IMG/VR virus record: IMGVR_UViG_3300007640_000269 | Coordinates: 1 to 22,243 of that record | DNA from: a virus | DNA: 22,243 bases | Direction: 5' to 3' (one strand) | Shown here: piece after piece, positions 783 through 22,243 of the stretch | Position numbering within the stretch: the first letter of the stretch is position 1 | Layout: each line of letters begins with the position of its first letter | Notes under the pieces: model-generated | Databases searched by the model: none | What the model saw: only the letters and a program-made list of their open reading frames with translations | Told to the model about the DNA's origin: nothing | Made by a program: the position numbers and the translations under genes

Positions 783-1787
783 TCAGAGAGAACCGAGAAG
801 AACTCTACGATTGTCAAGAACAGCAAAGCCCTGTTCAGCCCAACCATAGAAACCAGCTCGTTTTTGACGATGAAGAGTATCGTCTTCAAAAATTTGAACT
901 TGTTCACGCACTGGCATGATAAAACTGTCTCTCTTACGAAGATCGAGACCAACTACTAGCTCGACGTCATTAGCTGGTAAACTAGCCTCTAAAACATTAT
1001 CATAGAACAATTGGTACTCTTGACCTTCGCCGAGTTCATCAAGATCGTGAAGATTAACACCGAAAATTCTATTTAATGTGCCATCAGCAGCAACATAGAT
1101 TTCACGACGAGTAATTTCATCAACTTGATCGATACCCCAGTTACGAATATCCTCCATAGCTTCTGGAGAAACATAAAGATCAGTTAACATACCTCTGTTA
1201 TTGCTAGCGCTGTTACCGCCGCCATTACGACGCATAACAGTTTTTAATAAGCTGACCAGTCTCTTGGTGAATTGTCCTGTATCAGCATCGCTATCATAAA
1301 CAACTATGTTACGATCAACACCAGCAGCAAGAAGAGTGTGCCAACCGTCATCATTCATCTTCTTAACAAACTGAGCCTCAAGAACTTCCATAGCACGACC
1401 AACAACGTCCCAACGGGCGTCACGAGCATACTTTAGAAGATAATCGATACTAGCACCAATGTCATAAGTTGGAACCATTACATAATCGCCCTCAACATGA
1501 CGTTGTGGAATATAACCATGATTTGGGATAGTATAAGCCACAAAATCTTTTTCTGTGCCAGGGGCTAGAAAATCTAATGGAAATTCTGGAGTAGCACTTT
1601 GAGCAAGAACAACTGGCTCAAATATGCCATCAAGAATATCTCCATTGAGAACGCCTTGACGCAAAGGTAACTCTAAAGCTTTGGCAAATTCAGCATTAGC
1701 TGCTAAAGCCTGATCTTTATTATGCGAACCAGACTTAATCAAAAGATCAGTAAGTTCTGGCGTAGCTTCGAATCTATTATTGACCAT
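783..1787 (-). CDS. Major capsid protein (HK97-fold type)
   Basis: This is the 334-residue main shell protein, last gene of the head operon. I chose ATG 1787 (MVNNRFEATPELTDLL) over the upstream in-frame ATG at 1805 because AAGGGAG lies exactly 6 nt before it, between the two ATGs; the upstream ATG merely overlaps the previous stop codon. The order decoration protein, capsid, terminator, the length of ~330 aa, the sequence style (the N-terminal part, a central ARDARWDVVGRAMEVLE helix, a Gly/Asn-rich loop NGGGNSASNN, and a C-terminus ending AEQGFAVLDNRRVLLGSL) and its place after a prohead protease all fit HK97-type capsid proteins. The family call rests on context and resemblance, not on an alignment. 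The strong SD and terminator fit a highly expressed protein. Confidence 0.85.
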   Translation of the reverse strand: MVNNRFEATPELTDLLIKSGSHNKDQALAANAEFAKALELPLRQGVLNGDILDGIFEPVVLAQSATPEFPLDFLAPGTEKDFVAYTIPNHGYIPQRHVEGDYVMVPTYDIGASIDYLLKYARDARWDVVGRAMEVLEAQFVKKMNDDGWHTLLAAGVDRNIVVYDSDADTGQFTKRLVSLLKTVMRRNGGGNSASNNRGMLTDLYVSPEAMEDIRNWGIDQVDEITRREIYVAADGTLNRIFGVNLHDLDELGEGQEYQLFYDNVLEASLPANDVELVVGLDLRKRDSFIMPVREQVQIFEDDTLHRQKRAGFYGWAEQGFAVLDNRRVLLGSL

Positions 1788-1801
1788 GTTTTTCTCCCTT
1801 A

Positions 1802-2251
1802 TCATGTTATATTAATATCAACTTTTGCATAACCATCGGCATCTCGTGAACTTAAAAAGCGACCAACTTTCACGCTATTATTAACGTTTGTTAGTTCGCC
1901 GAATTCATCAAAATAAGCGCTTTCTCCAGCAGTAACATTTACTCCGCTTTTGAGAACGTCTGTTGTTACTTGACCTTGACGCAAAAGAGTAACCTTACTA
2001 CCTATCTGAACTTCATCTCGATGCCAATTAATGTGTTGTCTGGTTAGATCTAAATCAACAACATCATTCAGTAATAGACCAGCAGGATTACCGTCAGTTC
2101 CGGTTGGATATACTACTTGAGCATTAGCGTCATCCATACTGACTCCGCTACCACTAGTATCATGAACAACAATGCCTCCACGTTCAGCAACTTTATTCAT
2201 GAAAAATGAGATATCTGTGTATGCTTCGATACGATCTGGTTTTAGAGCCAT
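1802..2251 (-). CDS. Probable head decoration/capsid-stabilising protein
   Basis: This 149-aa protein begins MALKPDRIEAYTDIS. ATG 2251 has AAGGGAGAG a few bases upstream, so I prefer it to the GTG two codons earlier. The protein is rich in beta-strand-like segments and Gly/Asp turns (PAGLLLNDVVDLDL, VGRFLSSRDADGYAKVDI). Its size, lack of catalytic motifs and place between protease/scaffold and capsid genes match lambda gpD-type or other head-decoration proteins. Its stop lies 12 bp before the capsid ATG, and its own start is 3 bp from the preceding stop, so translation is probably coupled. The function is inferred from synteny. Confidence 0.6.
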   Translation of the reverse strand: MALKPDRIEAYTDISFFMNKVAERGGIVVHDTSGSGVSMDDANAQVVYPTGTDGNPAGLLLNDVVDLDLTRQHINWHRDEVQIGSKVTLLRQGQVTTDVLKSGVNVTAGESAYFDEFGELTNVNNSVKVGRFLSSRDADGYAKVDINIT

Positions 2252-6058: not shown

Positions 6059-8089
6059 TTATCTGTAAATACCTTTATATATATCTAAATTAGCCGCTTC
6101 TGTAAACCATACCGGTCCTTTGTATAATTCTCCATCTGGTTTTTTCTTGTTACCTTGTCTTAAATTAGAGCCAATGACGTCAAAAGTTACAGGATCCATA
6201 GATCTATTTATTTGTCTAGCTATCATATTAGCTATTACTAGAGCACTATATCTATCTTTTCTTAATTTGCCCTTTTTTCCATTTGGCAACTTTATATCCG
6301 GAGTGTCCCATCTATCTCTCCCACCCATTCCAGTACTAGTTTGTGTCATAACAATTGTTGTCAATTCGTTTTTCAATTCTTCTATTTCTAGTATGCAGTC
6401 ACTTTCATTATCATATATATTATTAAAATCAGTATCCATTATATCTTTGTTTTCTTTGTCTAAAGCCAAAGCAAGAGTAAGTTGGTCAAAACGAGGAAAC
6501 AATAATAATTTATCTTCAAAATCTTTTCGTAAACCATGATTTGCTTGACTAGTCCAGTCAGATTTAGCAAACTGAACCAACTCTAGAATATGTAAGCCAG
6601 CTTGGTCATCTGTTTCTTTATATTTTTCTGGATCTATAACTGGCCAAATTAATTGCTCTCCAGGTTCAAGTTTTGAGGGATCATGTAAAGCTTCTTCAAC
6701 AGCAACTCCACCACCCTGAGCATCTATACCTATTTTAATAGGAGGAAATGTTTTCATTAAGTTTCTAATTTTTCTAGCACAAAATCCATAAAAATCATGC
6801 TCATTAACTAATCCAGTTTTTTGTCTCTCTTTAAAATTACTTCTGTTCGTAGTCCAGCAATATACTATCCTTGTGTGATCGGAATGAAGTTCTAAAATTA
6901 TAATACTAAAATTATCTTTTTCAGATGCCGGGTCGATGCCGTATACGTATTTATACTTAAGGTTTCCTTGAGTAATAGCGTCAAATAAGATTTTTTTGTC
7001 ATTAAGTATGATAGGTTTGCTTTCTTTAACAACACAACTTTCTATTAGGCTTCTTCTAAAAAACCCATCACTATCTTCCGTAAAACAAGCAGCGTATTCC
7101 ATATTATAAATGCCGGTATGAATAGTAGCTTTTGCTCTACTTACTTGCTTATCGTCCATAAAACCTTTAGGTATCAGTTCATAGGGTATTCTAATTATGC
7201 TATAATCTTTCCAATTAAAATTATCTGGCACTTCACCATTAAATATTTCTTTAAGCTTGATAGGATCACCCTTAGTATTAATTATATCTTTATATCTTTT
7301 CCAATAGTTAGCAAAATGTTTAAAAGCATAATCTGCTGTGCCAGATATAATAGCTTGGTTTCCTTTCTTAATTTGAACTGCTTCAAGCTCTTCATTCCAC
7401 AGTCCAGCGTCTGTTAAGGCTTTTTTCTTTGCCTCTTCTTTAACATTTTGTATAGGATTTGCGCTAACAGCAGCGAAGCCAGCAACAACAGTTTCATATA
7501 TGTCTGGAGATATAGAAGCAAACTCATCCGCAATAATAATATGAGCTCTTAATCCTCTAATTTTACTGCCGTCACCCATAGGCACGGCGATAGTCCAACT
7601 ATCTCCTAGTCTGATTGTGCATCTATCAACATCTCTACGAGGACCATCATCATTACTGCTAAAAATACTTCTTAAAATAGGACTATTTCTCCATAAATTT
7701 TCCATATATTCAAAAATAATTTTACTTTGTCTAAAAGCCGCACCCACAACAACAATTTTAGTGCCAGGAACAAGCATGCATTTGAGAACTGCATACAGAG
7801 CCATTAAAAAACTTTTACCAAAACCACGACTAGCTATGAACATTGGAAATGGACGTATCCAAAATTCTTGTAAAATAGCTATTTGTATAGGGTGTAGCTC
7901 TATATCAAAAAGCAACTTGCAAGTAGATCCAAAATATTTTGGATTTTTTAATAATCTTAATAGATGAAGATCGGGATTTTCTATATCTTCTTTTGATCGA
8001 TGTATCATAGGATTATTGAAATTTGTAACTTTAGATAAGTCACCCAATCCTAACCATGCATCATCAAATTTTTTACTTATTTCCACCAT
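6059..8089 (-). CDS. terL: Terminase large subunit (packaging ATPase and nuclease)
   Basis: The 676-aa protein translocates phage DNA into the prohead and cuts the concatemer. The N-terminal ATPase has Walker A ASRGFGKS (residues ~86-93) and Walker B IIIADEF with catalytic Glu (~184-190). The C-terminal RNase-H-like nuclease shows the acidic strands YGIDPASEKDN (D386) and KIGIDAQGGG (D456), and a late Asp in KDRYSALVIANMIA. Size and order match canonical large terminases, and all key residues are present, so it should be active. The ATG overlaps the last 17 bp of the ERCC4-type nuclease gene and has no SD of its own, suggesting translational coupling. The portal follows directly; the candidate small subunit is unusually far away (15.2-16.1 kb). 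Confidence 0.95.
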   Translation of the reverse strand: MVEISKKFDDAWLGLGDLSKVTNFNNPMIHRSKEDIENPDLHLLRLLKNPKYFGSTCKLLFDIELHPIQIAILQEFWIRPFPMFIASRGFGKSFLMALYAVLKCMLVPGTKIVVVGAAFRQSKIIFEYMENLWRNSPILRSIFSSNDDGPRRDVDRCTIRLGDSWTIAVPMGDGSKIRGLRAHIIIADEFASISPDIYETVVAGFAAVSANPIQNVKEEAKKKALTDAGLWNEELEAVQIKKGNQAIISGTADYAFKHFANYWKRYKDIINTKGDPIKLKEIFNGEVPDNFNWKDYSIIRIPYELIPKGFMDDKQVSRAKATIHTGIYNMEYAACFTEDSDGFFRRSLIESCVVKESKPIILNDKKILFDAITQGNLKYKYVYGIDPASEKDNFSIIILELHSDHTRIVYCWTTNRSNFKERQKTGLVNEHDFYGFCARKIRNLMKTFPPIKIGIDAQGGGVAVEEALHDPSKLEPGEQLIWPVIDPEKYKETDDQAGLHILELVQFAKSDWTSQANHGLRKDFEDKLLLFPRFDQLTLALALDKENKDIMDTDFNNIYDNESDCILEIEELKNELTTIVMTQTSTGMGGRDRWDTPDIKLPNGKKGKLRKDRYSALVIANMIARQINRSMDPVTFDVIGSNLRQGNKKKPDGELYKGPVWFTEAANLDIYKGIYR

Positions 8090-8594: not shown

Positions 8595-11066
8595 TTAGGT
8601 TGGCGGTGTTGTGGTTGGCGCAAAGGTCGTTGTGGGAGACGCTGTTGTGGTTGGTTCAACGGTTTCTGTAGGGCTAGGCGTTGGGCTAGGCGTTGGGCTA
8701 GGCGTTGGGCTAGGCGTTGGGCTAGGCGTTGGCGTAGGCGTTGGCGTAGGCGTTGGCGGAGGATCGCTTGGGGTGGGTGTTGGCGTTGGCGTTGGCGGAG
8801 GATCACTTGGGGTTGGCGTAGGTGTTGGCGTAGGTGTTGGCGTAGGTGTTGGCGTAGGTGTTGGCGTAGGTGTTGGCGTAGGTGTTGGCGTAGGTATTGG
8901 CGTAGGACATTCAAGAGAAATTGTTTCAATATTAGAATAGCAACATTTATCTTGGGGTGGTGGGGGTGGTACTTCTGGTGGACATTCTGGAACATCAACA
9001 GTTGCTTCAACAATCATAGAACCATTGTAGCCCCATAAATGCATGTCGCTAGAACTCCACAATCTAATACTAGGTGGATATTTAGCTACCAAAGCTGGAT
9101 CCGCATTATTCCAACTATTGGTCAGATTAACAGTATCGTATGGGCCGTCTTTCCATATAACATTATTAATAATTGCTGGACCAGTTTGATCTAAGACTAA
9201 GTCTCCATTAAAGTTTTCTTGCGAATATACTTTAACCCTAAATCCTTCTGGAACAAGTATTCCATCAAAAGTTGTCTTTTGAGCATTTACGGCAGTTTCT
9301 GACAAATAAGGATAAGATCCTGGTACTATATAATTACAAGTAAGGAAAGAAGCACAGGTGTTTAATTTTTCTACTTCAACAATACCAGGACCAACATCGC
9401 ATGAACCACCAAGTAAACCACCTGTGACATGTAAACCACATAGGGTGTCAGGGTTTGGCGTTGGAGTAGGGTTTGGCGTTGGAGTAGGGTTTGGCGTTGG
9501 AGTAGGCGTTGGCGTTGGAGTGGGCGTTGGCGTTGGAGTGGGCGTTGGAGTGGGCGTTGGAGTAGGCGTTGGCGTAGGAGTAGGCGTTGGAGTAGGCGTT
9601 GGCGTTGGAGTAGGCGTTGGCGTTGGAGTAGGCGTTGGAGTGGGTGTTGGTGTGGGCGTGTCGCTTGTGTATGTTACATATATACTATTCCCAGAGCTAT
9701 CTGCTCCTGCTTGCCAATATTTTTGCCCATTCTCTATGATGCTTATGTCGCTCAGAGCACCAGACTTAGTGATGTAAGACCAATTAGAAGGATCATTATG
9801 AGCAATCTCAGAGGGTGTTAGCGATGCTAAATTTAAAGCGTTAACAACTTCATCAATTCTACAAAAAAGACCTACATTATTTTGTAACGGAGTCCACTCT
9901 TGTCCATCAATATTGTATGTTAGAGAACCACCAGCAAAAATTAAACCAACTATTTTATATGTAGTAAGAAAAGTATTATTATCAAATATTGGAATTATTG
10001 CTAAAGAACCAGAATCTCCTGGCGCTATTACGTTTGGAGAAGGTACATAATACACATTACCATTATTTGGATTTGTAACAGTTTCGTAAGTGTTATAAGT
10101 AAATTCTACAACATTAGTGAAGTTTATAAGAACATCGTTATAATTTAGGTCTTTATAATTTACTCTTAATGTAGTAAACAAAGAAATTGGGTTTATTCTA
10201 CAATAATTTTCTCCAGAATTTAAACCGGTGGTTCTGCCACTTTTATACAAAAGATCTGAATAAACCAAAATTGAATCTATTTCTTGAGTACTAGCTATCG
10301 GAAAATAGTCTAACCCTACATTAGCATTAACAAGAGCAGGATCTAAACCAATTCCGCCGCCTGATAATTGTTGTTTTTTAGCTGAAGATATAGAATTTAC
10401 GGTGTTAGATTCATAAAAACCTATAACAGCGGCATCTACAGAATTATAATTATTAGGATTTGGGTCTAAAAATTGATATCTCTTAATATTTCCAATAAAA
10501 TTTTGAACTGCATATCCTGGTGGTGGAGAATCGATTCTTCCTGGTTGACACAATCTATCGTCTCTAATATCCCATACTAAATTACTTTTTAAATTGTTTG
10601 AATAACTTTTTTCTATTCCATCAAAAACTACGTGAGCATTAGTTAATCCTACAAAACTATCATCATCTTTGTCTAATAAAATACCACCCAAGGTGCCAGC
10701 ACTTATTATTTTTTCATTGCCTATAGATATTCCACCAGTTAGATTAGGAATCACAGATTGTCTATGTGGATCAGAACTAGCGCCATTAGCCTCAAAACAA
10801 TTACTATCCAAAGCGCTGGGTATAATTTTCGGTACTACATCTGTTAAAATTTGCTCTCCATTTAATTCTACATACGGAGGTAAAACTTCGTCTGGTGGTA
10901 TTTCTTCTATTGGCAGCTTTTTTTCAACACCAAAAATAATAGCAAAATCATCTGTAATCTGATTATCTTTTATTTTTTTACCATAACCAACAGAATATAC
11001 GCTGTTAGGAGTAGACTTATGTAATTCTTTGGTAAGATTTTTTAAATCATTAAAATTGATTGACAT
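8595..11066 (-). CDS. Trypsin-like serine protease with two Pro-Thr tracts and a crystallin-like domain
   Basis: This 823-aa multidomain protein starts at ATG 11066 after SD AAGGAT. Residues ~80-440 form a chymotrypsin-fold protease: [10 protein letters not shown] (H145), [10 protein letters not shown] (D211), [10 protein letters not shown] (S352), plus [12 protein letters not shown], so the triad looks intact. Then come a Pro-Thr tract (~469-539), a domain with [18 protein letters not shown] (~609-626) matching the Y-x4-F-x-G signature of beta/gamma-crystallin Greek keys, a Cys/Pro-rich bridge, a second Pro-Thr/Ser-Pro tract (~719-800) and a short TTTASP-like tail. No signal peptide is seen. 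Between HNH/structural genes and the terminase, it is likely a virion-displayed or lysis-released protease. Substrate unknown. An overlapping ORF in another frame is a repeat shadow. Confidence 0.85.
8667..8907 (-). repeat. Pro-Thr/Ser-Pro tandem repeat, C-terminal tract of the trypsin-like protease
   Basis: The plus strand shows runs of GGCGTAGGTGTT, GGGCTAGGCGTT and two copies of a GGCGGAGGATCNCTTGGGGT interruption (encoding SDPP). Several 12-bp units are perfect copies, for example GGCGTAGGTGTT repeated back to back at ~8815-8890, indicating recent slippage or unequal recombination. Confidence 0.9.
9451..9662 (-). repeat. Pro-Thr tandem repeat, central tract of the trypsin-like protease
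   Basis: About 71 codons alternate Pro and Thr, with Asn-Pro variants at the C-terminal end. They are built from GGCGTTGGAGTG/GGCGTTGGAGTA units on the plus strand. The tract joins the protease domain to the crystallin-like domain. Confidence 0.9.
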
Positions 11067-12089: not shown

Positions 12090-12890
12090 TTAGACTAGTT
12101 GATTAGCTGATATAGTTCTAATATCATCGATTTTTGTAGAACAACAATCTATTACTTTGACAAATTCAGTATCTGACATTGTGTTATCTATAATTAAACT
12201 TTCCCAAAAAGTCCAATCTTTATATATATATCTATAACGTAATGGTATTCTATATCTAATATGAACATAAGAAGTATTATTTAACGAAGGTTTTGGATAT
12301 AAAAATATGTTAAAATATTCATCATCAATATAAAAATTAAACGTTCCTAATTGTATATCTTTATTAGAACTAGATAATAGTTGACCACCGCTTTCTTTAG
12401 ACCAATTTAAAACATATTCTCCGCTATAATCAATATAATAGCATGTGCAATCATTGGTGGTTAAGTTTATAGCGTCTACAACCTTAAAGAATCCACCTTT
12501 AAATGGATAAGAAGATGTTCCGTTCACAGTATTCTGTGTCCAATGGTATCCTCCGTTTTGGAAAATTGTGGAAATTTTTTGTGGACAAAGTGGATAATTG
12601 GAAACGTTTGGATATCCGGGATCAAACTGTTGAGTAAAATAATTTAACCTATTTTGTCTAATCGCTGTGGTGTCCAAACTCATTCTTACATTTCTTCTGT
12701 CATTATTGTCTGGAACATGTAAATCTAAATTGATAGGTTTTTTCTCATATATTTTTGTGATATTTGCTGTAGTAGTATTATTAAAATCATTAATTAGCGG
12801 TTTAGTCTCTTGATTTTTGATACTATTTTTAAAAGAAATACCGTCTATATAGTTATTTTTTTTTAGTTTATCAATAGCAAAAATAGACAT
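12090..12890 (-). CDS. Shared-module virion accessory protein
   Basis: The 266-aa protein (MSIFAIDKLKKNNYID) starts after AGGAATAA. Residues ~69-120 carry the repeated N-terminal module of this locus: IRQNRLNYFTQQF (77-89), a 14-residue gap, QKISTIF (104-110) and NGGYHWT. The module and its following YPFKGGFFKVVDAI match the gene at 13540-14931 (YPFKTSLRKVYDSV). The C-terminal ~140 residues are beta-rich and aromatic, have one DCTCYY Cys pair, and end with two more Cys (DCCSTK). No enzyme motif is seen. Spacing of 8-9 bp on each side indicates one operon with the nucleotidyltransferase and Cys/Pro-rich genes. Function unknown; docking to the virion through the shared module is inference. Confidence 0.65.
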   Translation of the reverse strand: MSIFAIDKLKKNNYIDGISFKNSIKNQETKPLINDFNNTTTANITKIYEKKPINLDLHVPDNNDRRNVRMSLDTTAIRQNRLNYFTQQFDPGYPNVSNYPLCPQKISTIFQNGGYHWTQNTVNGTSSYPFKGGFFKVVDAINLTTNDCTCYYIDYSGEYVLNWSKESGGQLLSSSNKDIQLGTFNFYIDDEYFNIFLYPKPSLNNTSYVHIRYRIPLRYRYIYKDWTFWESLIIDNTMSDTEFVKVIDCCSTKIDDIRTISANQLV

Positions 12891-12898
12891 ATTTATTC

Positions 12899-13540
12899 CT
12901 AATCTATTGGAGATATATCTTGGTATTCTAGAAGCTTTTCATATGTACTATCATACACAATTTTTAAATCTTCGCCCGAAGATATATTTGAACTAAAATA
13001 TTTACTTGTAAAAATTTTTTTCTGATTTGGCCATAAAGAAATGAAAAATTGATAATATGGTTCTAAAAAAATATAATAATCAATTTTAGTACCATCTAGA
13101 ATTTTTTCGGGAAGGTTATTATTTTTTAGCCATTCAGCATAAGATCTTATATCTTTCACCCAAAATACAATATCAATATCTTTATGATTTTCTACATTTT
13201 CAACTATATAAGATCCAGTTAGTCCTATGTCTACAAACCAAGAATATTTTTTTAAAAAAGAAAATTGATCATTTATTATTTTCCAATTATTTGGACATAT
13301 AATTTTAGTATGATTTACATATTTTTTTATCAACTTATCGAAAAAAGTTTTATCATATCGTCTATAAAAACATTTTTTCAAAAAATCTTTATTATTTTGT
13401 CCATATTTGTAGACATTAATAGGACATTGACGACAAAATAAATAGGAAGTGGTAACAACATGGCCTAATCTTTTGGATTGCCATTCACATATAGCTGGGC
13501 TGTCGCACCCAATTCTATATTGACAATCAAAATCAAACAT
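12899..13540 (-). CDS. Nucleotidyltransferase-fold protein with N-terminal cysteine cluster
   Basis: In this 213-aa protein, residues ~105-155 carry the pol-beta-type signature: GLTGSYIVENVENHKDIDIV (G109-S110 and D121-x-D123) and a third Asp in TKIDYYIF (D154). These match the GS-x(n)-DxD...D pattern of minimal nucleotidyltransferases, so NMP or nucleotide transfer to a protein, RNA or small molecule is likely. The N-terminus has C6, C12, C18, C36, C39 and C57, including FCRQCP, probably a zinc or iron-sulfur site. Its ATG overlaps the preceding stop codon (TAATG), so translation is coupled. A nucleotidyltransferase inside a structural cassette is unusual. The substrate is unknown; it could modify a host protein, a tRNA or a virion component. 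Confidence 0.75.
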   Translation of the reverse strand: MFDFDCQYRIGCDSPAICEWQSKRLGHVVTTSYLFCRQCPINVYKYGQNNKDFLKKCFYRRYDKTFFDKLIKKYVNHTKIICPNNWKIINDQFSFLKKYSWFVDIGLTGSYIVENVENHKDIDIVFWVKDIRSYAEWLKNNNLPEKILDGTKIDYYIFLEPYYQFFISLWPNQKKIFTSKYFSSNISSGEDLKIVYDSTYEKLLEYQDISPID

Positions 13541-14931
13541 TATGAAACCTGAATTACAACATCGTACATAGGCTCTCCTGTATCAGAATTTGGATATCCT
13601 GCTTCGGTCTGTGAAATAATTTCAACAGTATATCCATTGCAGCAAAGATACGTAGTTGATCCGCAGCTATTGGTAACCACAGATAAATCATATGCTCTAT
13701 TATATATTCCTGGGCCTAAATTACAAAATTCATTTAGGCAACATTCTGTTTCTACGCATGGTGTAGGTGTGGGCGTAGGCGTGGGCGTTGGCGTGGGCGT
13801 GGGCGTTGGCGTGGGCGTTGGCGTTGGTGGTGGTGGTGGTGGTGGTGGTGTAGGCGTTTCTTCGCAAGAATTAGGAAGAGTATCATTATTGCATGGAATA
13901 GTGCCTAAAAATCCAGCATTGAATTTGCCGGGAGCTACACAATCGCCAAAAATAAGAACATACTCGTCATTGTCAGATCGTTGACCAACTAAAAATACCA
14001 TAGAAACATCATTATGACAAGTGAAGCCTTGTAATAAGCATTCAAGATATATGTTACATTCAGAATTTAATAAACTAGGATCGTTTACAGTAAATGTAAA
14101 ACTGTCTGACCTATCGCCGGGATGTTCTTGAACAAAACCATCGACAGGAAAATATGAAGGAACATCATATGTTGTTACACCAAAATTATCAAGACTAACA
14201 TTATTTGATGCTTGTATTATAGACCCATCGCTTAATTCTAACACAGGAGCAAAGTGTGTTCTATAACATTTATGCCCACCAGCACATCTAACTTTTCTAG
14301 GTCCGATGTTTGGAACATTAACTTCTCTGATACGCGAAACATAAAAAATATAACCATATATAGTAGATTTTAAATTTATCAATTCAGGTGCTGGACATGG
14401 TTCAACCGGAGGAGGAATACACTCCCTCAAAGAAGTACACAATCCTGTTACTGGATCCGGAGATTGGCCATTTGGGCAACAAAACTGTTGGCCAGCAAAA
14501 TTTTTACCATATTGATTAGACTGAACTGAATCGTAAACTTTGCGTAAAGAAGTTTTGAACGGATATCCTTTATCGTCATCAACTTTTCTTGTGTAAGAAT
14601 ATGCGCCATTAGAAAATACTGTAGATAATTCAGGATTACAAAACCTGTAACTATCATTTTCTGGAAAATTATTTTCAAATTCACCAGAATAAAAATCAAA
14701 TCTATCATTTCTAATAGATTCTTCTGTCATTCTGATTCTAATAACTTCTGTATTATTGCTACCTCTTTTTTTTATTTCTTCTAATACGTTGTACTGTATC
14801 AATTTGTTATTTAATGGATCTATAGTTCCATAATCGGTTTCTCTGGAAGCTTCAACTTTAGGATAATTATTTTGTCTAGAACCACCATTATTATTTATTG
14901 GTAAATTAGGATTTGCTTTAAATGTGCTCAT
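13540..14931 (-). CDS. Shared-module virion protein with Pro-Thr tract and Cys-rich C-terminus
   Basis: I start this 463-aa protein at ATG 14931 (MSTFKANPNLPINNNGG) because AGGGG lies 7 nt upstream; the longer frame to 15006 overlaps the HNH gene and lacks an SD. Residues ~68-115 are the shared module: IRNDRFDFYSGEF (73-85), PELSTVF (100-106), NGAYSYT. A Cys/Pro-rich joint (CCPNGQSPDPVTGLC) leads to a beta-rich middle (~180-350) with several Cys. Next come a Pro-Thr tract with a polyproline run, and a C-terminal Cys module, FCNLGPGIYNRAYDL...SCGSTTYLCC, resembling [20 protein letters not shown] of the trypsin-like protease. Function unknown; a modular virion spike or fibre component is likely. 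Confidence 0.7.
   Translation of the reverse strand: MSTFKANPNLPINNNGGSRQNNYPKVEASRETDYGTIDPLNNKLIQYNVLEEIKKRGSNNTEVIRIRMTEESIRNDRFDFYSGEFENNFPENDSYRFCNPELSTVFSNGAYSYTRKVDDDKGYPFKTSLRKVYDSVQSNQYGKNFAGQQFCCPNGQSPDPVTGLCTSLRECIPPPVEPCPAPELINLKSTIYGYIFYVSRIREVNVPNIGPRKVRCAGGHKCYRTHFAPVLELSDGSIIQASNNVSLDNFGVTTYDVPSYFPVDGFVQEHPGDRSDSFTFTVNDPSLLNSECNIYLECLLQGFTCHNDVSMVFLVGQRSDNDEYVLIFGDCVAPGKFNAGFLGTIPCNNDTLPNSCEETPTPPPPPPPPTPTPTPTPTPTPTPTPTPTPTPCVETECCLNEFCNLGPGIYNRAYDLSVVTNSCGSTTYLCCNGYTVEIISQTEAGYPNSDTGEPMYDVVIQVS
13760..13858 (-). repeat. Pro-Thr tandem repeat with (GGT)n polyproline stretch
   Basis: The plus strand has GTGGGCGTAGGC/GTGGGCGTTGGC units followed by a perfect (GGT) run at about 13826-13847 that encodes polyproline. 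The trinucleotide run is a likely slippage site. Confidence 0.9.
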
Positions 14932-14983
14932 AAAACGACCCCTGATAGTATATTCATAATCTAGTGTAATATACACCATTAAG

Positions 14984-15256
14984 TTATTTTGTACATTTGT
15001 TAGCAACTATTTTACTAAAAAAATGCCTATAATTATCTTCATTATTTTTTATCATATCATGGTGTTGTTTGCACAAAGTAATCCCATTATAGATATGGAA
15101 TCTTAATCCAGGAAAATCGGCCCATTTATAAATATGATGAGCATTTAGTTTTTTAGTATTTTTGCATCCAGGCCATTGACAAGTAAAATTATCTCTAGCA
15201 TAAACATTATGTCGCCAATTTTTATACATTGGATCTTTATAATTACGATTCGTCAT
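14984..15256 (-). CDS. HNH endonuclease
   Basis: The 90-aa protein is a compact HNH nuclease: a Cys pair in FTCQWPGCKN (C26, C31), the catalytic LNAHHIYKW (H40/H41), Asn in IYNGITLC (N57) and the second metal pair CKQHH (C62, H65). It overlaps the small-terminase-like gene upstream by 14 bp. HNH proteins encoded beside terminase genes are known to take part in cohesive-end or headful cleavage together with the terminase in several HK97-like phages, so a packaging role is more likely than homing, although a free-standing mobile HNH is possible. Both ends are intact. Confidence 0.88.
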   Translation of the reverse strand: MTNRNYKDPMYKNWRHNVYARDNFTCQWPGCKNTKKLNAHHIYKWADFPGLRFHIYNGITLCKQHHDMIKNNEDNYRHFFSKIVANKCTK

Positions 15257-16055
15257 TTTTAGCAGAGTGTTCGTTGAGGAATGGTATGTCTACTTTTTTG
15301 TCTGCATAGTTGTGGTATTCTTCTAGATTTTTTTTAAATTTTTCTGTAGCCATGTCCAATATTGCCATTTCTTTGCCTTCCTTTTCTCTAATTTCTTCAT
15401 CCTCAAGCATTCTTATAAGACCTACCCAGCTACTTTTACCATCTTCTATTCTTTTGATGCGCTGCTCTCTTGTGGCTTTTAAATCTTTGCTGATTTTTTG
15501 TTGTTCATTTAATAGTTTTGTATACTCATTTGTATAACTAGAAATACTATTTCTTGCAAAACTTAATTGTGTTTCTAAATTTGCTAATTTAGGTATATCT
15601 CTTTGATCTTCTGGTTTATCATATTCTGCGTCTACTTGTTTTTGAAGTTTTTCTGTCTCACTAATATGCCTTTTGCGTTCTTTCATACTGCGATTAATAA
15701 GAATATCTATTGTGATAAATTGTTTAATTTGAAGTTCTTCAGCTGGCAAAACATCTTCTCGAAACTGTTTAATTAAACCTATCCAAGTATTTTCGAAATA
15801 TTGAAGCTCTCCGCTTTCTTCGTCAAATTGTCTTTCTATTTCATACCAAAAACTTTTGCTATGTAATTTTCTAATTAATATATCGTTATCGTTTTTTTCT
15901 TCTAGGGCATATAGTTGGTTTTCATCTATATACCTTTTAATAGGAGCTTCCGTCCTATTTAAAGAATTTGCTATTTGTTCTATGCTAAGAGTTTGTATAT
16001 TTTCGGTAATAAATTTCTCTTCATCTAAACTCAATTGTCCTCTTTTTTTTGCCAT
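15243..16055 (-). CDS. HTH and coiled-coil protein, candidate small terminase subunit
   Basis: The 270-aa protein has a basic start (MAKKRGQ) and a helix-turn-helix at ~8-45 (LDEEKFITENIQTLSIEQIA, then a recognition-helix-like RTEAPIKRYIDEN). A helical middle and a long charged coiled coil (~115-200, NRSMKERKRHISETEKLQKQ) follow, then a helical end. An N-terminal DNA-binding HTH with a central oligomerisation coil is the plan of small terminase subunits, which recognise the packaging site and form rings. Its neighbours (HNH immediately downstream, sigma-like gene upstream overlapping by TAATG) support this. Its HTH resembles that of the divergent regulator at 16869-17090. No motif is specific for TerS, so the call rests on architecture and context. 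Confidence 0.55.
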   Translation of the reverse strand: MAKKRGQLSLDEEKFITENIQTLSIEQIANSLNRTEAPIKRYIDENQLYALEEKNDNDILIRKLHSKSFWYEIERQFDEESGELQYFENTWIGLIKQFREDVLPAEELQIKQFITIDILINRSMKERKRHISETEKLQKQVDAEYDKPEDQRDIPKLANLETQLSFARNSISSYTNEYTKLLNEQQKISKDLKATREQRIKRIEDGKSSWVGLIRMLEDEEIREKEGKEMAILDMATEKFKKNLEEYHNYADKKVDIPFLNEHSAKNDES

Positions 16056-16675
16056 TAATTTGATCCTAATATAGTTTTAATTTTAGATACCAGTTTTAAA
16101 ATTTCGTTTTTCTTAACTTTGCTACCAGTTTTTAACTTAATATATATTATTCTTTCTTCTCCAATTAAATTTTCTTCTAAAATTTTATATATTTCTTGAT
16201 TCTCCGTATCATTAATATAGCTTTGAAATATATTTGAAAAATCTTTTATTTCATCTACTGTTATTAAATACATTAAATTTTTTTTTGTATCATTACGCTT
16301 ACTCCAAGAATTGTATAATTCGCAATCGTTTTTGTTCGTATAGCTCTTACATTGACTAAATGAACTAGTCATAGATGGATCATAAAAAGGACAGGTGTAA
16401 CAAGGCTTATCTGGCCTTTGGTAATTATCTCTTTTATAATTGAACAATCTGTTCCGAACATGAGTCCACAAGAAATTTTCTAATGGTCTTTTATGATCGT
16501 AATTTTTTAAACCTTCTATAGCAAATATACTAATTTGCTGTTTCATGTCCTCTATATCATGATATCCGAATTTAAATTTATAAGCTAATTTTTTACTAAT
16601 AATATCTATTACTTTTAATAGCTCATTATCATCTACTTTCGGTGTTTTTTTGGTTTTTTTCTTTTTTTTGCTCAT
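16055..16675 (-). CDS. Sigma-70-family-like transcription factor with Cys4 insert
   Basis: The 206-aa protein begins with a Lys-rich stretch (MSKKKKKTKKTPKVDDNELL). Residues ~38-88 resemble sigma region 2: YHDIEDMKQQISIFAIEGLK, then NFLWTHVRNRLFNYKRDN, the usual D-x-x-Q...F...R-N-R-L pattern. Next is an insert with CYTCPFYDP (C92, C95) and C109, C118, probably a zinc knuckle. The end (EERIIYIKLKTGSKVKKNEI) is like sigma region 4. It probably redirects host RNA polymerase to phage late genes, or is a structural relative of sigma. No SD precedes ATG 16675, and the gene overlaps a 52-codon ORF that does have a good SD, so a longer protein made by frameshifting, or an indel in the poly-A runs, is possible. 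See findings. Confidence 0.65.
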   Translation of the reverse strand: MSKKKKKTKKTPKVDDNELLKVIDIISKKLAYKFKFGYHDIEDMKQQISIFAIEGLKNYDHKRPLENFLWTHVRNRLFNYKRDNYQRPDKPCYTCPFYDPSMTSSFSQCKSYTNKNDCELYNSWSKRNDTKKNLMYLITVDEIKDFSNIFQSYINDTENQEIYKILEENLIGEERIIYIKLKTGSKVKKNEILKLVSKIKTILGSN

Positions 16676-16787
16676 CTATAATTTGGCTGATGGTTTTATT
16701 AGAATCATCCTTTTTAAGGTCTTCAGTTACGTCAATTTCATTAGCGGTAACTTTTAAAACACTAGGAACAATATTATCAATATTCAT
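16629..16787 (-). CDS. 52-codon leader ORF overlapping the sigma-like gene
   Basis: This short ORF is the first gene after the leftward promoter. ATG 16787 has AAGGTG 5 nt upstream. It encodes MNIDNIVPSVLKVTANEIDV, continues with an acidic/polar stretch, and ends in a Lys-rich KKEKNQKNTESR at stop 16629-16631. It overlaps the sigma-like gene by 47 bp in a different frame (+1). The overlap holds three A runs (8, 7 and 7 A) where the downstream frame also encodes poly-Lys. It may be a real small protein that couples translation to the sigma-like gene, or the true N-terminus of that gene separated by a frameshift or sequencing indel. No known family recognised. Confidence 0.6.
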   Translation of the reverse strand: MNIDNIVPSVLKVTANEIDVTEDLKKDDSNKTISQIIDEQKKEKNQKNTESR

Positions 16788-16803
16788 TTTTTCACCTTGC
16801 GTG

Positions 16804-16815
16804 TATTGGCCAATA
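16804..16815. promoter_or_regulatory. 12-bp perfect palindrome, candidate operator
   Basis: TATTGGCCAATA reads identically on both strands. It lies immediately downstream of the -10 of the leftward promoter, at about +4 to +15 relative to the predicted start point, and upstream of the divergent HTH gene. A dimeric DNA-binding protein, possibly that HTH protein, could bind here to repress. The sequence is visible; binding is inference. Confidence 0.5.
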
Positions 16816-16824
16816 ATATATCAT

Positions 16825-16853
16825 ATAGTATGTAGTATATACACTTTTGTCAA
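16825..16853 (-). promoter_or_regulatory. Sigma-70 promoter for the leftward packaging operon
   Basis: On the minus strand a perfect -35 TTGACA (16853-16848), a 17-nt spacer and a -10 TACTAT (16830-16825) are present. The predicted start is near 16818, giving a ~30-nt leader with SD AAGGTG before ATG 16787. The spacer contains the 8-bp palindrome GTATATAC (16835-16842). The -35 lies in the 5' untranslated region of the divergent gene, so the two promoters overlap. Confidence 0.75.
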
Positions 16854-16868
16854 AAAGGAATCAATATT

Positions 16869-17090
16869 ATGGCAACATATAAAAAATGGAGCGATGTGGA
16901 GATAAATTTTGTAAGAGATAATATTTCGCTATTGAGTGATGAACAATTGGCCAGTAAGCTTAGTGGTATGACAGGCGAAAATATTACTTATGGTATGGTT
17001 CGTAGACAAAGACGAAAACTAGGCATAGTTAAGCCACGTGGGCGTCCGAAGAAGGTCAAGAATATACAAGAGTTTCAACCAGAAACTTGA
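16869..17090 (+). CDS. Small HTH DNA-binding protein with AT-hook-like tail
   Basis: This is the only convincing plus-strand gene. The 73-aa protein starts at ATG 16869 with AAGGA 9 nt upstream. Residues ~7-52 form a helix-turn-helix (WSDVEINFVRDNISLLSDEQ, continuing LASKLSGMTGENIT and a basic RRQRRKLGI). A basic AT-hook-like PRGRPKK (~56-62) follows. The first part resembles the N-terminal HTH of the candidate small terminase (xxFIxxNIxxLSxEQ). It is divergent from the leftward operon and ends at a strong terminator. It is probably a regulator acting on the shared control region, perhaps through the palindrome. A weak rightward promoter candidate TTGGCC/17/TATGTA (16806-16834) is present. 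Confidence 0.8.
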   Translation: MATYKKWSDVEINFVRDNISLLSDEQLASKLSGMTGENITYGMVRRQRRKLGIVKPRGRPKKVKNIQEFQPET

Positions 17091-17097
17091 TATCAAA

Positions 17098-17127
17098 AAG
17101 CGCCGGAGAAATCCGGTGCTTTTTTTT
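17098..17127. terminator. Convergent terminator between the HTH gene and the leftward operon
   Basis: A hairpin AGCGCCGGA, GAAA tetraloop (GNRA type), TCCGGTGCT is followed by T runs on the plus strand and by A before the stem, giving a T5 tract on the minus strand. On the plus-strand RNA the stem is complete with one G-U wobble; on the minus strand that pair becomes an A-C mismatch. It should stop rightward transcription well and leftward transcription less well. The TAA of the leftward gene (17126-17128) overlaps its T run. Confidence 0.88.
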
Positions 17128-17740
17128 ATTCAAATGTTAACAAACCAAAGTTATTTAAATCTCTGCCAGTCACCGTAAATATTTGCGTTCTGGGGCCTTC
17201 GCCAAAAGTATTTACCGCAGAAACCTGGAAAATATTACCGGGAAGAAGGATATTAAGTAAATAAATGCTATAGATATTATATTTAGGATATATTTTATTG
17301 TATATATCTGGATAATTTTGAGAAATTCTATTTAAAATAGTGCTATCGTTAATTTTAAAAGATATAGGTTGAATTCTTGGTGACAAATCGGTGTCAGTAC
17401 TTGTATTAGAATAGCAAACAAATTCTTGAATTGGAATACGAAAATCGTCATCAAAATACATAGCCAAAGTAGAAGTTAAAGTACTAGATGCATATATAAC
17501 TTTTGGCTTGTTAGGTCTGATATTATCGTCACAATTAGTAGATATGGTTTTTTTGCCAACATTAAATACTGTACAAATTTTTTGATCATTTAAATAAGTA
17601 TTAACATTTTCTTTGTCTGTAAAAGTGTTCGTAAATTCATTGTAAGAATTATTTCTTATAGCTTTAGGAGTATGAACAACTCTTAAGTTTTTAGATTGAT
17701 TTGTGTTATTGTTGTTATTATATTTGTAATTAAATATCAT
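17126..17740 (-). CDS. Shared-module protein with fibronectin-III-like C-terminus
   Basis: In this 204-aa protein an Asn-rich start (MIFNYKYNNNNNTNQSKNLR) is followed by the shared module of this locus: IRNNSYNEFTNTF (28-40), a 12-residue gap, QKICTVF (53-59). From ~72 on, the sequence looks like a fibronectin-III or related beta-sandwich: NKPKVIYASSTLTSTLAMYF near its start and FQVSAVNTFGEGPRTQIFTV near its end, the latter being the classic F/G-strand pattern of FN3 domains. FN3 domains in phages bind carbohydrate or link tail proteins. SD AAGGT precedes the ATG. It is the last gene of the right-hand operon, just after the papain-like protease. Function as a virion accessory is inferred. Confidence 0.7.
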   Translation of the reverse strand: MIFNYKYNNNNNTNQSKNLRVVHTPKAIRNNSYNEFTNTFTDKENVNTYLNDQKICTVFNVGKKTISTNCDDNIRPNKPKVIYASSTLTSTLAMYFDDDFRIPIQEFVCYSNTSTDTDLSPRIQPISFKINDSTILNRISQNYPDIYNKIYPKYNIYSIYLLNILLPGNIFQVSAVNTFGEGPRTQIFTVTGRDLNNFGLLTFE

Positions 17741-17765
17741 ATTATAACCTTTTTAGTTATGCTTA

Positions 17766-19184
17766 TTAACCTGGCGAAGCTGTGGTCGTTGTGGGAGACA
17801 CTGTTGTGGTTGGCGAAGCTGTCGTTGTGGGAGACACTGTTGTGGTTGGCGAAGCTGTTGTGGTTGGCGAAGCTGTTGTGGTTGGCGAAGCTGTGGTTGT
17901 GGGAGACGCTGTTGTGGTTGGCGAAGCTGTGGTAGTTGGAGAAGCTGTTGTTGTGGGAGACGCTGTTGTGGTTGGCGAAGCGGTCGTTGTGGGAGACGCT
18001 GTTGTGGTTGGCGAAGCTGTGGTTGTGGGAGACGCTGTTGTGGTTGGCGTTGGCGTAGGCGTAGGTGTTGGCGCTGGTGTGGTTGTCGGACAACAATTTT
18101 TAATTTTTTCCCACGTTATTTCTTGTCCTGGTAATCCAGGCGGTAAAAAACTAATTGAAAAACCGATAAATCGCAAAAGACCAACATCGCCTCTTCTGAA
18201 ATAATTTCCATATAAATCTCCAATATTAAAAGGAATTTTGGGCATTGGATTTCCTGTAAAGATATCGCCTTCTATATCTTCATAGCTATAATAGATAAAA
18301 AATTCACCAGGTCTTTTAATATCAGTACCATATTCATAAAAATCTTTGAATTTTAATTCAAATCCATTTGTATCACACTCATATCCTACGCAGATAACGG
18401 TATGGCTGTACGCTCCCTTAATTGTAAAATCAAAAGGTTGTGTTGGATCATAAATAATCATAGAACCTGAACTGTGGTTGAATTTCTTAGATTTAGAATC
18501 AAACTCTTGCCATTCAGGTCCTGAAAAATTACAAATAATAGGTTTTTTATTCTTACAAAGAAAATTGATAAAATCTTTTAAATCTAAATCTGCAGAAGCT
18601 TTATTTGATATGGCTGATCGGTTACTAATACCAACTCTAACTGGTATAATACACGGAGCGTCGTAATCGCACTCCACAACACCATTATCACCAAATATAG
18701 CAGGATCGTAGGTCTGATATTCTGACGAATTATGATCGCATATAATTTTAATTGGTAAAGTTTTTGATATGCGACTTTTTATATCTTGACGTTTTCCATC
18801 TTTTTCATTAAAAATCCAGTTTAGAAACTGCTGGCTTTTTTGGAATTGTAAAATTTGATCGCTAATTTTTTCCTCAGCATATCCTTGTGACCGTAGATTT
18901 TTTTCAAATGCTACGATATCTATTGACCTAGGCAGATATTCATCCTTTTGCCACTGTTTTCTGAGGCACTGTATTGTATAATTTATGTCGATACTAATAT
19001 TATTTGATAGCTCTAATTTTTGTTGTAGTTCAAAAACAATAAAAGAAAACAAAGTATTAACAGCACAAGTTGCTGAATCCAAACCATTGTCTAGTTGTTG
19101 ATTTATATTAAGATTTATATTTGCTACAAAATCTTCACCATCATTACAATCAAATAATTCTTTAAATTTTTCTGGACAAGACAT
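17766..19184 (-). CDS. Papain-like cysteine protease with TTTASP-repeat tail
   Basis: I start this 472-aa protein at ATG 19184 (MSCPEKFKELFDCND) because of SD AAAGGA; the longer frame to 19247 runs into the preceding gene. Residues ~25-50 (NINQQLDNGLDSATCAVNTL) match the DQGxxGSCxAxA active-site region of C1 peptidases with C40 as nucleophile. AYSHTVICVGYEC supplies the His (H261), and FKDFYEYG (D281) probably replaces the Asn/Asp of the third catalytic position. No propeptide or signal peptide is evident. After a CCPTTTPAPTPTP joint the C-terminal ~95 residues are a [12 protein letters not shown] repeat. It sits with the subtilisin-like protease, so both may act on host or virion proteins. 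The substrate is unknown. Confidence 0.8.
   Translation of the reverse strand: MSCPEKFKELFDCNDGEDFVANINLNINQQLDNGLDSATCAVNTLFSFIVFELQQKLELSNNISIDINYTIQCLRKQWQKDEYLPRSIDIVAFEKNLRSQGYAEEKISDQILQFQKSQQFLNWIFNEKDGKRQDIKSRISKTLPIKIICDHNSSEYQTYDPAIFGDNGVVECDYDAPCIIPVRVGISNRSAISNKASADLDLKDFINFLCKNKKPIICNFSGPEWQEFDSKSKKFNHSSGSMIIYDPTQPFDFTIKGAYSHTVICVGYECDTNGFELKFKDFYEYGTDIKRPGEFFIYYSYEDIEGDIFTGNPMPKIPFNIGDLYGNYFRRGDVGLLRFIGFSISFLPPGLPGQEITWEKIKNCCPTTTPAPTPTPTPTPTTTASPTTTASPTTTASPTTTASPTTTASPTTTASPTTTASPTTTASPTTTASPTTTASPTTTASPTTTVSPTTTASPTTTVSPTTTTASPG
17772..18088 (-). repeat. 18-bp tandem repeats encoding TTTASP, with a short Pro-Thr lead
   Basis: On the plus strand, units GTTGTGGTTGGCGAAGCT and GTTGTGGGAGACGCT/ACT alternate about 15 times, followed by ~35 bp of GGCGTT-type Pro-Thr units. 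Several units are identical, indicating recent expansion. The 18-bp length keeps the frame. Confidence 0.92.
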
Positions 19185-19206
19185 TATAAAATCCTTTGTG
19201 GTGTGT

Positions 19207-19443
19207 TCATAAAATGAATAACAAATCTTCATTTGGGAAAGCGGCATGCCATGCTTCTGTGTCTGGCCTGCACTTATTATAAATTACAGTTACGCCATTT
19301 TCAGATATCGAATATACACAAGAAGTATAGTCAGAAGGTATGGGGTCTGGAACAACATCTATTGATTCTCTAGAGTTACCAGTATCCCAAAAAGCTTTTG
19401 GGACATTGTATTCAACTTGTGTTTTTATATTAAAAATAGCCAT
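19207..19443 (-). CDS. Small protein with N-terminus duplicated from the subtilisin-like protease
   Basis: The first residues of this 78-aa protein, MAIFNIKTQVEYNV and AFWDTGNSRES, match the start of the subtilisin-like protease just upstream (MAIFNIKTQTSSNV, ALWNTGNNRDN), so the N-terminal segment was duplicated. The rest (Cys in TSCVYSISENG and YNKCRPDTEAWH) does not match the protease. It could be a minimal docking or assembly peptide, or a remnant of a larger duplicated gene. The SD is poor (AAAAAGAC). It lies 10 bp after the protease stop and 22 bp before the papain-like protease ATG, within one operon. Function unknown. Confidence 0.65.
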   Translation of the reverse strand: MAIFNIKTQVEYNVPKAFWDTGNSRESIDVVPDPIPSDYTSCVYSISENGVTVIYNKCRPDTEAWHAAFPNEDLLFIL

Positions 19444-19453
19444 TTGTGTCTTT

Positions 19454-21907
19454 TTATGAAAAAGGAGTTTCTGTTGGTGTTTCGGTAACTATTGGCCAAC
19501 TAATAAAATTACTGCTTAAACTGTTTTCAGTAATATTCCAATCTATACCACTTACACCAGGATAACTAATTAAAACTCTAATTTGTATAGCGTTAATTGG
19601 CACTAAGTCCACAGGTATCGATGCTCCGTATGCGAATGTTTCAAAATTTTCGGATAATGATGGTCTAGATTGCCAAGCTATTCCTATATCTGGAACACTC
19701 AATTTTTTTATAAAAGAAGTTGTGCCATAAATATATTTAGTATTTATTTGTATAGCATTTTCTTGATCATTTAGTTGGGGCTGTTGATCTATGCTTAGTT
19801 CATTAGCAATATTAGGTTCACAATCAGATGGATCATCAAAATTATTTATAACATCATAGCCTTCGCAGTTTTGATAAGGGTTTTGTAGTATTCTATTATT
19901 ATCTTGTCTATGTGGAAATAAATTTATTATTCCATAATCAGTTTCATAACCCCACAGTCCAGATATCCCATTGTCTCCACCGTGAGAATAGCCAATTATA
20001 ATATTTTTAACTATTTCTTGTGCGGTTTGATCATTTGGTAAATTTTCCATATGTCTGACTGTTTCTGCTGTTACGCCTGCCACTAAAGGACAAGAAAAAC
20101 TTGTTCCCGAAACCCTAGCTTTTAGGTTTTTTCTTCTTTTTGTATTGGGGGCAGCAGCTATTACGTTTCGACCTGTAGCATAAATATCAACAGCTGGACC
20201 AAAATTACTAAACGAAGTTTTTTTATCCATAAAATGTCCAGGATTACCAACACCACGAGCAGTAACTTTAAGACAACCGATGTTTGAAGCACTCGTTACA
20301 GAACACTGTGCCACAATGACCGTTGATCCTACAGTGATAACTGTGGACATTCTAGCAGGACTTACAAAACGAGCATCAATATCATCATTACCAGCAGCGA
20401 CAACAACTATGATGCCTTTATTAATAGCTTCTGAAATTGCATATTCCATAATATTTTGTTCAGAAGATGTCTGTATGCCACCTAAACTTAAATTAATAAT
20501 TATTTTTCTATCTGGATTATCTATTTTATCTTGGATAACTCTAGATATACCACGAGCTACTAACTCATAGGAGCCTCCTTGTGGTGTTAAAACACCAACA
20601 CTGATTAACTCTGGCTTTCTTGTTACCCCACAATCTGCTCCTGCTACAACACTAGCAACTTTTACTCCATGATCAAAGTACCCAATAGTATCTTTGACTA
20701 TTAGTGGCCCATAGAAAGTTTTTAATCTTCCTTCAAATTGATTATGAGATATATTAATATCTCCGATGGGTTCATCTACTACGTATACATAAACAGGATC
20801 TTTAATTTCGTCGCACGTGCCACCGGAAGCTTTCAATTTATTTCTTGGTTTGGTTCTACCAGGATATGCTCTATCTAAAGGAAGATCTCCATGACACAAC
20901 CTTGAAAGCTGAGTGTAAACAAATGACGGCTTGCTATCAAATCTACAAGGCCGAACGTTATATAACCATTGCAAAATCTCTGTTTTTCCTAAAGTAGGAT
21001 TGCTCCAACAATTAGGTAATTCTGACACAATATCATCAACAGTTTTTAAAACAAACAAATTGCTATCGCTATCGAATTTGTATGGACATAATGTTCTTGG
21101 CCACTGATTATCAGAATCGGAGCACTCAGAATTAAGATTATAGCATTGACTAGGCGTATTTTTATAACGTCCTGTCCATTTGAATTTTTGCACATATCCG
21201 TTTTGAAAACTGTTTTCGATTCTACTATCATTTTGTGAAAAATATATGGCTGAATATAATGTGTTTTTATTAAAATTTATACTAAAAGTTTTAATTGCTG
21301 TCGTTGTATTTAAAATTGTTCCATTAAATTTATTAGCATATTCATTAGCTATGAGATTTAGGTTGTCTTCCACATTTTCTCCAAGAAAATCTGAAGACAC
21401 AACAAAAGAATATTGTTTAGTTAAGTCTTGTGATATAGGGTCATATAAAGATAATATTTCTGAAAGTTCTGGCAGTTGTTTTGATAAATTAAAAAAGTTT
21501 ACATAAAAAATAGAAGAAATTTTTTGTTCTAAATAGAAATACTTAGTTATATATGAAATACTACCAAAATCAAAAGAACCTGTATAAAAATTAAAATTGC
21601 CTTCTCTCATATTTTTAGATAAAAGCTGAGATCTCATCAAGATTGCATAATTATTTAATTTAAGAGATGCTGAGTTACTATTTATATAGCTTCTATCTGA
21701 TGTGAAAATTACAGAATGTTTAACGTAAAATGTTTTAGAATTTTTGATATTGCAAGTCTCATCTAAACTAAATTTTAGGTCACAAATTTCAGTAGGTGTA
21801 AAAAATTTATTATTATTAATCTGTAAATTATCTCTATTATTTCCGGTATTCCACAGCGCTGTGGAAACATTAGAAGAAGTTTGTGTTTTTATGTTAAAAA
21901 TAGCCAT
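19454..21907 (-). CDS. Subtilisin-like serine protease with shared N-terminal module
   Basis: The 817-aa protein has, in order: a leading peptide also found in the next gene; the shared module (~100-136: MREGNFNFYTGSF, QKISSIF); a segment resembling an I9 inhibitor/propeptide (~165-245, YSFVVSSDFLGENVEDNLNL); a Cys-containing stretch; and an S8 peptidase domain (~365-670). The triad is present: VYVVDEPI (D378), YFDHGVKVASVVAG (H413), SGTSFSCPLVAG (S603), plus the oxyanion Asn in VVAAGNDD (N507). The C-terminal ~140 residues end in a short TETPTETP motif as in the gene upstream. No signal peptide. It may act outside the host after virion docking, or process virion proteins. Confidence 0.88.
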   Translation of the reverse strand: MAIFNIKTQTSSNVSTALWNTGNNRDNLQINNNKFFTPTEICDLKFSLDETCNIKNSKTFYVKHSVIFTSDRSYINSNSASLKLNNYAILMRSQLLSKNMREGNFNFYTGSFDFGSISYITKYFYLEQKISSIFYVNFFNLSKQLPELSEILSLYDPISQDLTKQYSFVVSSDFLGENVEDNLNLIANEYANKFNGTILNTTTAIKTFSINFNKNTLYSAIYFSQNDSRIENSFQNGYVQKFKWTGRYKNTPSQCYNLNSECSDSDNQWPRTLCPYKFDSDSNLFVLKTVDDIVSELPNCWSNPTLGKTEILQWLYNVRPCRFDSKPSFVYTQLSRLCHGDLPLDRAYPGRTKPRNKLKASGGTCDEIKDPVYVYVVDEPIGDINISHNQFEGRLKTFYGPLIVKDTIGYFDHGVKVASVVAGADCGVTRKPELISVGVLTPQGGSYELVARGISRVIQDKIDNPDRKIIINLSLGGIQTSSEQNIMEYAISEAINKGIIVVVAAGNDDIDARFVSPARMSTVITVGSTVIVAQCSVTSASNIGCLKVTARGVGNPGHFMDKKTSFSNFGPAVDIYATGRNVIAAAPNTKRRKNLKARVSGTSFSCPLVAGVTAETVRHMENLPNDQTAQEIVKNIIIGYSHGGDNGISGLWGYETDYGIINLFPHRQDNNRILQNPYQNCEGYDVINNFDDPSDCEPNIANELSIDQQPQLNDQENAIQINTKYIYGTTSFIKKLSVPDIGIAWQSRPSLSENFETFAYGASIPVDLVPINAIQIRVLISYPGVSGIDWNITENSLSSNFISWPIVTETPTETPFS

Positions 21908-21948: not shown

Positions 21949-22243
21949 TTAGGTCTCAGTTGGGGTTTCAGTAGGAGTTTCAGCTGGGGTTTCAGTAGGA
22001 GTCTCGGTTGGGGTTTCAGTAGGAGTCTCGGTTGGGGTTTCAGTAGGAGTCTCCGTAACATCTTGTTCTTTACAATTTTCTAAGCATTCTTCTTCAGTGG
22101 CATACACCACAGCATCATCCGATAAATACTTAAGATTTTTATCTAAACAAGATTTTGAAAATAGTCTGCATCTTTTAGTTCCCGGAATAGGTTGTCCGCC
22201 CGCATCTGTATCAGAAGCACAAACCCACACTAAACCTGGATCA
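21949..22243 (-). CDS. Partial protein with Cys module and TETP tail (5' end outside window)
   Basis: The frame is open to the right edge, so the N-terminus is missing; the visible GTG at 22230 is probably internal. What remains is a small Cys module (WVCAS, KRCRLFSKSC, then YATEEECLENC) with five cysteines spaced like small disulfide or Kunitz-like knots in phage and eukaryotic secreted proteins, followed by ~11 TETP repeats to the stop. The tail repeat recurs in short form at the end of the adjacent subtilisin-like protease. Disulfides would form only outside the cytoplasm, so a virion-surface location fits, but function is unknown. Confidence 0.75.
   Translation of the reverse strand, partial: DPGLVWVCASDTDAGGQPIPGTKRCRLFSKSCLDKNLKYLSDDAVVYATEEECLENCKEQDVTETPTETPTETPTETPTETPTETPAETPTETPTET
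21952..22056 (-). repeat. 12-bp tandem repeats encoding Thr-Glu-Thr-Pro
   Basis: On the plus strand GGGGTTTCAGTA and GGAGTTTCAGTA/GGAGTCTCGGTT units alternate and encode TETP (one APAETP variant). The unit differs from the Pro-Thr tracts elsewhere, so this array expanded independently. Confidence 0.9.

Follow-up and report, generated by a model that had tools for sequence, protein, structure and literature searches.

A short module shared by four different proteins of an uncultured phage and its relation to the core of a family of small viral proteins

In phage T4, the capsid targeting sequence is an N-terminal sequence that is common to different internal head proteins and is cut off. In the dockerin-cohesin system, one docking module serves many cargoes. 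The receptor-binding proteins (RBPs) of Klebsiella phages vary in their C-terminal enzyme domains but have conserved anchor domains at the N-terminus and conserved short peptides by which a second protein is fastened to a branching domain (PMC6872550). We analysed a 22,243-base viral fragment from IMG/VR (this whole stretch is called the window) in which four otherwise different proteins share a module. As in the Klebsiella RBPs, a conserved N-terminal stretch is common to proteins with different C-terminal parts (PMC6872550), but the cargo there is a depolymerase and here a protease and other domains, and the module here, whose attachment is presumed, is not at the very N-terminus. As an analogy, the RBP anchor domain or conserved peptide is the closest known logic and a closer one than the dockerin, which is likewise an analogy only; we claim membership in neither group. 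No dockerin was matched by Pfam in the module proteins and no cohesin-like partner was seen. The T4 gp9/gp10 partner family PF07880 was found in none of nine relatives searched with one profile, some of these records being fragments. The module resembles the T4 targeting sequence as an N-terminal sequence common to different proteins, but it is longer, lies further inside the protein, and is related to a phage protein of what we call family Z, an unnamed family of about 180 residues.

The window virus and the four module proteins

The genes and module copies of the window were located as follows.

783-1805, minus strand: major capsid gene (name partly by inspection)
minus strand: genes for a decoration-like protein and a prohead protease/scaffold-like protein (names partly by inspection)
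3824-5998, minus strand: portal gene (name partly by inspection)
6059-8089, minus strand: large terminase (TerL) gene (PHROGs)
12537-12689, minus strand: module copy A (IRQNRLNYFTQQF ... QKISTIF), in the 266-residue protein at 12090-12890
14590-14742, minus strand: module copy B (IRNDRFDFYSGEF ... PELSTVF), in the protein at 13540-14931
17540-17686, minus strand: module copy C (IRNNSYNEFTNTF ... QKICTVF), in the 204-residue protein at 17126-17740
21482-21637, minus strand: module copy D (MREGNFNFYTGSF ... QKISSIF), in the 817-residue subtilase at 19454-21907
19949-20674, minus strand: subtilase catalytic domain of D (residues 412-653; PF00082, E 4e-28)

After TerL, the minus strand carries a nuclease gene and then accessory genes, and all four module copies share this strand with the TerL, portal and capsid genes. 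TerL had relatives 77-100% identical to it in the 80 viral contigs kept, one of which was 230 kb long, and GenBank phages gave partial TerL matches with an identity of at most about a third. The capsid protein matched a single GenBank phage, Bacillus phage G (21%, E 4e-6), and the tail sheath family PF04984 was not found in the nine relatives searched. The virus is an uncultured and probably large phage. Long Pro-Thr-rich repeats form linkers or C-terminal tails of accessory proteins at 3-482, 8595-9777, 13637-13984, 17782-18204 and 21949-22243. Between 8534 and 14984, an HNH gene and the nuclease gene are separated by five genes (8595, 11079, A, the nucleotidyltransferase-like 12899 and B), and since the HNH and nuclease genes adjoin in the genomes L010 and L005 this block looks like an insertion.

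The original prediction had quoted four 13-residue motifs, each followed by a second block, and the translations contained both, unchanged and at the stated places; the blocks are separated by 14 residues in A and in B, by 12 in C and by 15 in D. The parts downstream of the module do differ among the four proteins. Protein B continues with a PT-repeat linker and a Cys-rich C-terminus, and its start codon is ambiguous, being either the ATG at 14931 or one further upstream in frame, as far as 15006. The naming of the 21907 protein as a subtilisin was borne out by the PF00082 match; the catalytic Asp, His and Ser motifs (VYVVD, DHGVKVASVVAG and SGTSFSCP) were read in its translation, and the domain matched proteinase K-like chains in the PDB. 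The FN3-like label for the 17740 protein had been given by eye; Pfam was empty for this protein at E 0.1. The proteins starting at 12890, 14931, 17740 and 21907 begin with M(S/A)(I/T)F or MIF, the start of B being uncertain; when 408 genes were checked for a loose form of this start, 24 had it, including several of the module proteins.

Homology among the copies and to family Z

Copies A and B aligned over 79 residues with an E value of 3e-12. In a set of 5,699 ORFs from the window and its relatives, leave-one-out profiles recovered A (3.8e-12), B (7.2e-7) and C (8.6e-5), while the profile built from A, B and C missed D. When each pair was compared with 2,000 composition shuffles, the observed score was reached by none for A-B and A-C, by 3 for B-D, by 18 for B-C and by 22 for A-D; the similarity of C to D was not significant (1,242 of 2,000). 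By these shuffles A-B and A-C are clear, and B-C, A-D and B-D marginal to good. From the four window sequences alone, the membership of D would thus be plausible and unproven.

Family Z was reached from the TerL relatives, by way of a profile of the segments and a search of whole records. Among the 5,699 ORFs, the seed profile retrieved one further protein, of 89 residues, in L010 (E 2e-11), which occupies the slot of gene C and contains almost nothing besides the module. The whole-record search added two mutually related proteins, one of 182 residues (E 2.4e-7) encoded on a contig of 230 kb and another (E 0.001) on a contig of 122 kb. Profiles and patterns widened the family to 74 viral loci on about 70 related contigs, which reach 238 kb in length. 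A Z profile built without window sequences ranked the L010 protein and A-D immediately below the family members, all in a common register, with E values of 4e-5 for the L010 protein and A, 0.004 for B, 0.005 for C and 0.43 for D. Copy C scored E 7e-5 against a profile of the core of the outside family.

Several results bear on copy D. Once Z relatives with 'AMRxGxFNxxTGxF' were added to the profile (44 outside members, no window rows), D improved to E 1.4e-4 in the same register, a value that is partly circular because 5 of the 44 rows came from a DNA pattern derived from D. A gapless matrix built without D is free of this circularity; with it D topped all non-family ORFs among 12,467, and none of 5,000 shuffles of D equalled its score. 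The DNA pattern was drawn from D and a protein of locus L201 and scanned over 2.9 million IMG/VR viral contigs, yielding 13 stretches that included five new Z proteins and the L201 carrier. That this pattern retrieved Z proteins at all strongly supports the membership of D. The predicted profile similarity of the four copies therefore stood at once for A, B and C, whose leave-one-out values ran from 4e-12 to 9e-5, and failed there for D, which was recovered by the later tests.

The region found in the window proteins is the Z core, AIRxNxYNxYTGxF. The N-terminal block (VFASTVxDNxxADKAVSAGxFAY) and the C-terminal block (DxAAxPTRxxPGxLxYxxG) of Z were unmatched in them and the core alone aligned; the window proteins thus carry the Z core but are not full Z proteins. 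Taken together, these comparisons show that the four-copy segment is a homologous module and forms the core of Z, a family of small viral proteins. In the most distant members of Z the C-terminal block persists but no core can be recognised, which indicates that the core is not the sole important part of Z. An overlapping piece (Z residues 41-125) was found at the head of a 683-residue protein in L016, and in L201 a 198-residue core-bearing protein adjoins Z with a suggestive E value of 0.03. Locus L221 has tandem Z genes (1-483 and 515-1093) followed by a membrane protein, with a trypsin-like protein two genes on (by inspection).

The module had been described as matching no named family, and in agreement neither it nor Z had a convincing match in Pfam, PHROGs or the PDB. 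Z was found in no GenBank phage, and one scan of bacterial and archaeal genomes (GTDB) gave 17 pattern matches of which none was confirmed. Searches of viral contigs with single proteins, A and B, gave no match, and in the first module alignment conservation was nowhere sufficient for a scan.

Gene neighbourhoods, predicted structures and a second module

The usual gene order around Z is ClpP-like, DeoC-like, Z, membrane protein and, often, tail fibres. The gene for the membrane protein, a small one, was downstream of Z in 63 of the 74 loci at a median distance of 72 bases; upstream, DeoC-like genes were present in 60 loci and ClpP-like genes in 57, and tail-fibre homologues followed Z in 25. 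In G034 the genes downstream of Z bear phage-tail repeat, tail-tip and FGE-sulfatase Pfam domains. From these neighbours, Z is probably a virion protein associated with the tail or fibres. The FGE-sulfatase fold is frequent in variable receptor-binding proteins, and in G034 this domain lies on a fibre-region protein (L131, 17183-19114). G034 and G010 each carry TerL and Z on one contig, far apart. The ClpP-like, DeoC-like, Z and membrane protein neighbourhood was not seen around the window copies, which lie near the packaging and capsid genes.

AlphaFold models of Z and A had mean pLDDT values of 42 and 46 and were mostly below 50. The core hairpin was the best part of both (block means of 71-77 and 86), the rest being of low confidence, and the core strands fell at equivalent residues (129-130/135-136 in Z and 82-83/88-89 in A). 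Because the two alignments share rows, this agreement lends weak support, and it has no bearing on binding.

The subtilase carries a second N-terminal module, N2 (MAIFNIKTQ...TGNxR).

21767-21907, minus strand: N2 of the subtilase, its first ~47 residues
19207-19443, minus strand: stand-alone N2 gene of 78 residues, directly upstream of the cysteine-peptidase-like gene
17766-19184, minus strand: cysteine-peptidase-like protein with a PT-rich tail, between the stand-alone N2 and gene C (start at 19184 inferred)

N2 is thus fused in the window subtilase and is a separate gene in three genomes, the window, L010 (1585-1842, 85 residues) and L005 (1635-1895, 86 residues); in all three genomes the separate gene immediately precedes one for a cysteine-peptidase-like protein. 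The window protein at 17766-19184 had no Pfam match; its alignment with the L010 and L005 homologues showed conserved Cys and His, suggesting that it belongs to the cysteine-peptidase class. Both in the window and in L010, a Z-core module gene follows the cysteine-peptidase-like gene, so that the neighbouring genes (N2, peptidase, module) are the same pieces as those fused in the subtilase (N2, module, peptidase). Three protease-like types occur between 8595 and 21907: trypsin-like (8595-11066, phrog_20754), cysteine-peptidase-like (17766-19184) and subtilase (19454-21907). A subtilase encoded separately, about 300-316 residues long, was seen in seven of nine relatives.

Proposed docking and its alternatives

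The core is mobile between proteins, is placed N-terminally, in the window on four proteins of the late region, and is followed by unrelated downstream parts. There is good support for the idea that these proteins have a module in common and that their cargo is interchangeable. In this virus, part of one protein seems to have been duplicated onto several different ones, and the copied core would probably serve to attach its carriers to a common site. The best explanation, which we hold with middling confidence, is that the module docks its carriers, presumably to the virion. Docking is favoured by the four segments being homologous both among themselves and to Z, by the constant position of the module near the N-terminus with varied cargo, and by the nearly solitary module in the gene C slot of L010. 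The core or overlapping Z pieces on the L201 and L016 proteins, the fact that all copies share a strand with the genes for TerL, portal and capsid, and the constant neighbourhood of Z with tail-domain genes downstream in G034 point the same way, as do the core being the best-modelled part of Z and A with equivalent strands and N2 occurring as a fusion in one protein and, in three genomes, as a gene of its own. Against docking are the most distant Z proteins without a recognisable core, the absence of the module from the trypsin-like (8595-11066) and cysteine-peptidase-like proteins, and the AlphaFold models, which are poor overall and come from alignments that share rows.

A targeting propeptide, with which the N-terminal part would send the proteins into the prohead and then be cut off, leaving the cargo packaged and injected and not displayed, would also account for an N-terminal module with varied cargo and for genes beside the portal, prohead protease/scaffold-like and capsid genes. 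The packaging of ejection proteins is known from giant phages (PMC7411985, PMC5694885), which is in keeping with it. However, the module core lies 27-100 residues into the carrier proteins and not at their very end, and core-bearing Z adjoins fibre genes, not head genes, and we consider a targeting propeptide unlikely. The co-occurrence of N2 and the module with peptidases, fused in D and as neighbours in the window and L010, could instead indicate a piece for oligomerisation or folding that trimerises or chaperones, or is a protease propeptide, and attaches to nothing; a fibre-like, low-complexity Z would fit an oligomer. This too is improbable in our view, as A and B have the module without a recognised peptidase and the L005 peptidase has N2 but lacks a module gene within range. 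As a beta-turn motif 'FNxxTGxF' is widespread, C1q-like domains being one instance; the motif is short, and unrelated proteins (L235, L241) also matched the short DNA pattern, as would be expected if the similarity reflected local structure and not common descent. Such convergence is very hard to credit given that the similarity reaches past the hairpin (R...TxAIRxN), that the profile without window rows sets all four copies in one register, that the A/B alignment spans 79 residues, and that Pfam found no C1q match.

If the module docks its carriers, the Z core (R-x-x-x-[FY]-N-x-[FY]-T-G-x-F) would be a tight beta-hairpin that binds a fixed site on the particle and was copied into the N-terminal part of accessory proteins. 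Proteases and other domains would thereby occupy the same kind of site, some of them on flexible PT linkers and facing the host envelope. N2 may be a second attachment or chaperone piece for peptidases, supplied fused in the subtilase or next door in the case of the cysteine-peptidase-like gene. More tentatively, and with considerable doubt on our part, this would amount to a plug-in system in which the attachment core of a small particle protein mounts several enzymes at equivalent virion sites, through fused or adjacent genes.

Family Z is a previously unrecognised family that is spread through a large group of uncultured phages, and the module profile provides a means of finding accessory proteins in them. 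If docking is true, it shows phages mounting interchangeable enzymes, including proteases, on one kind of site.
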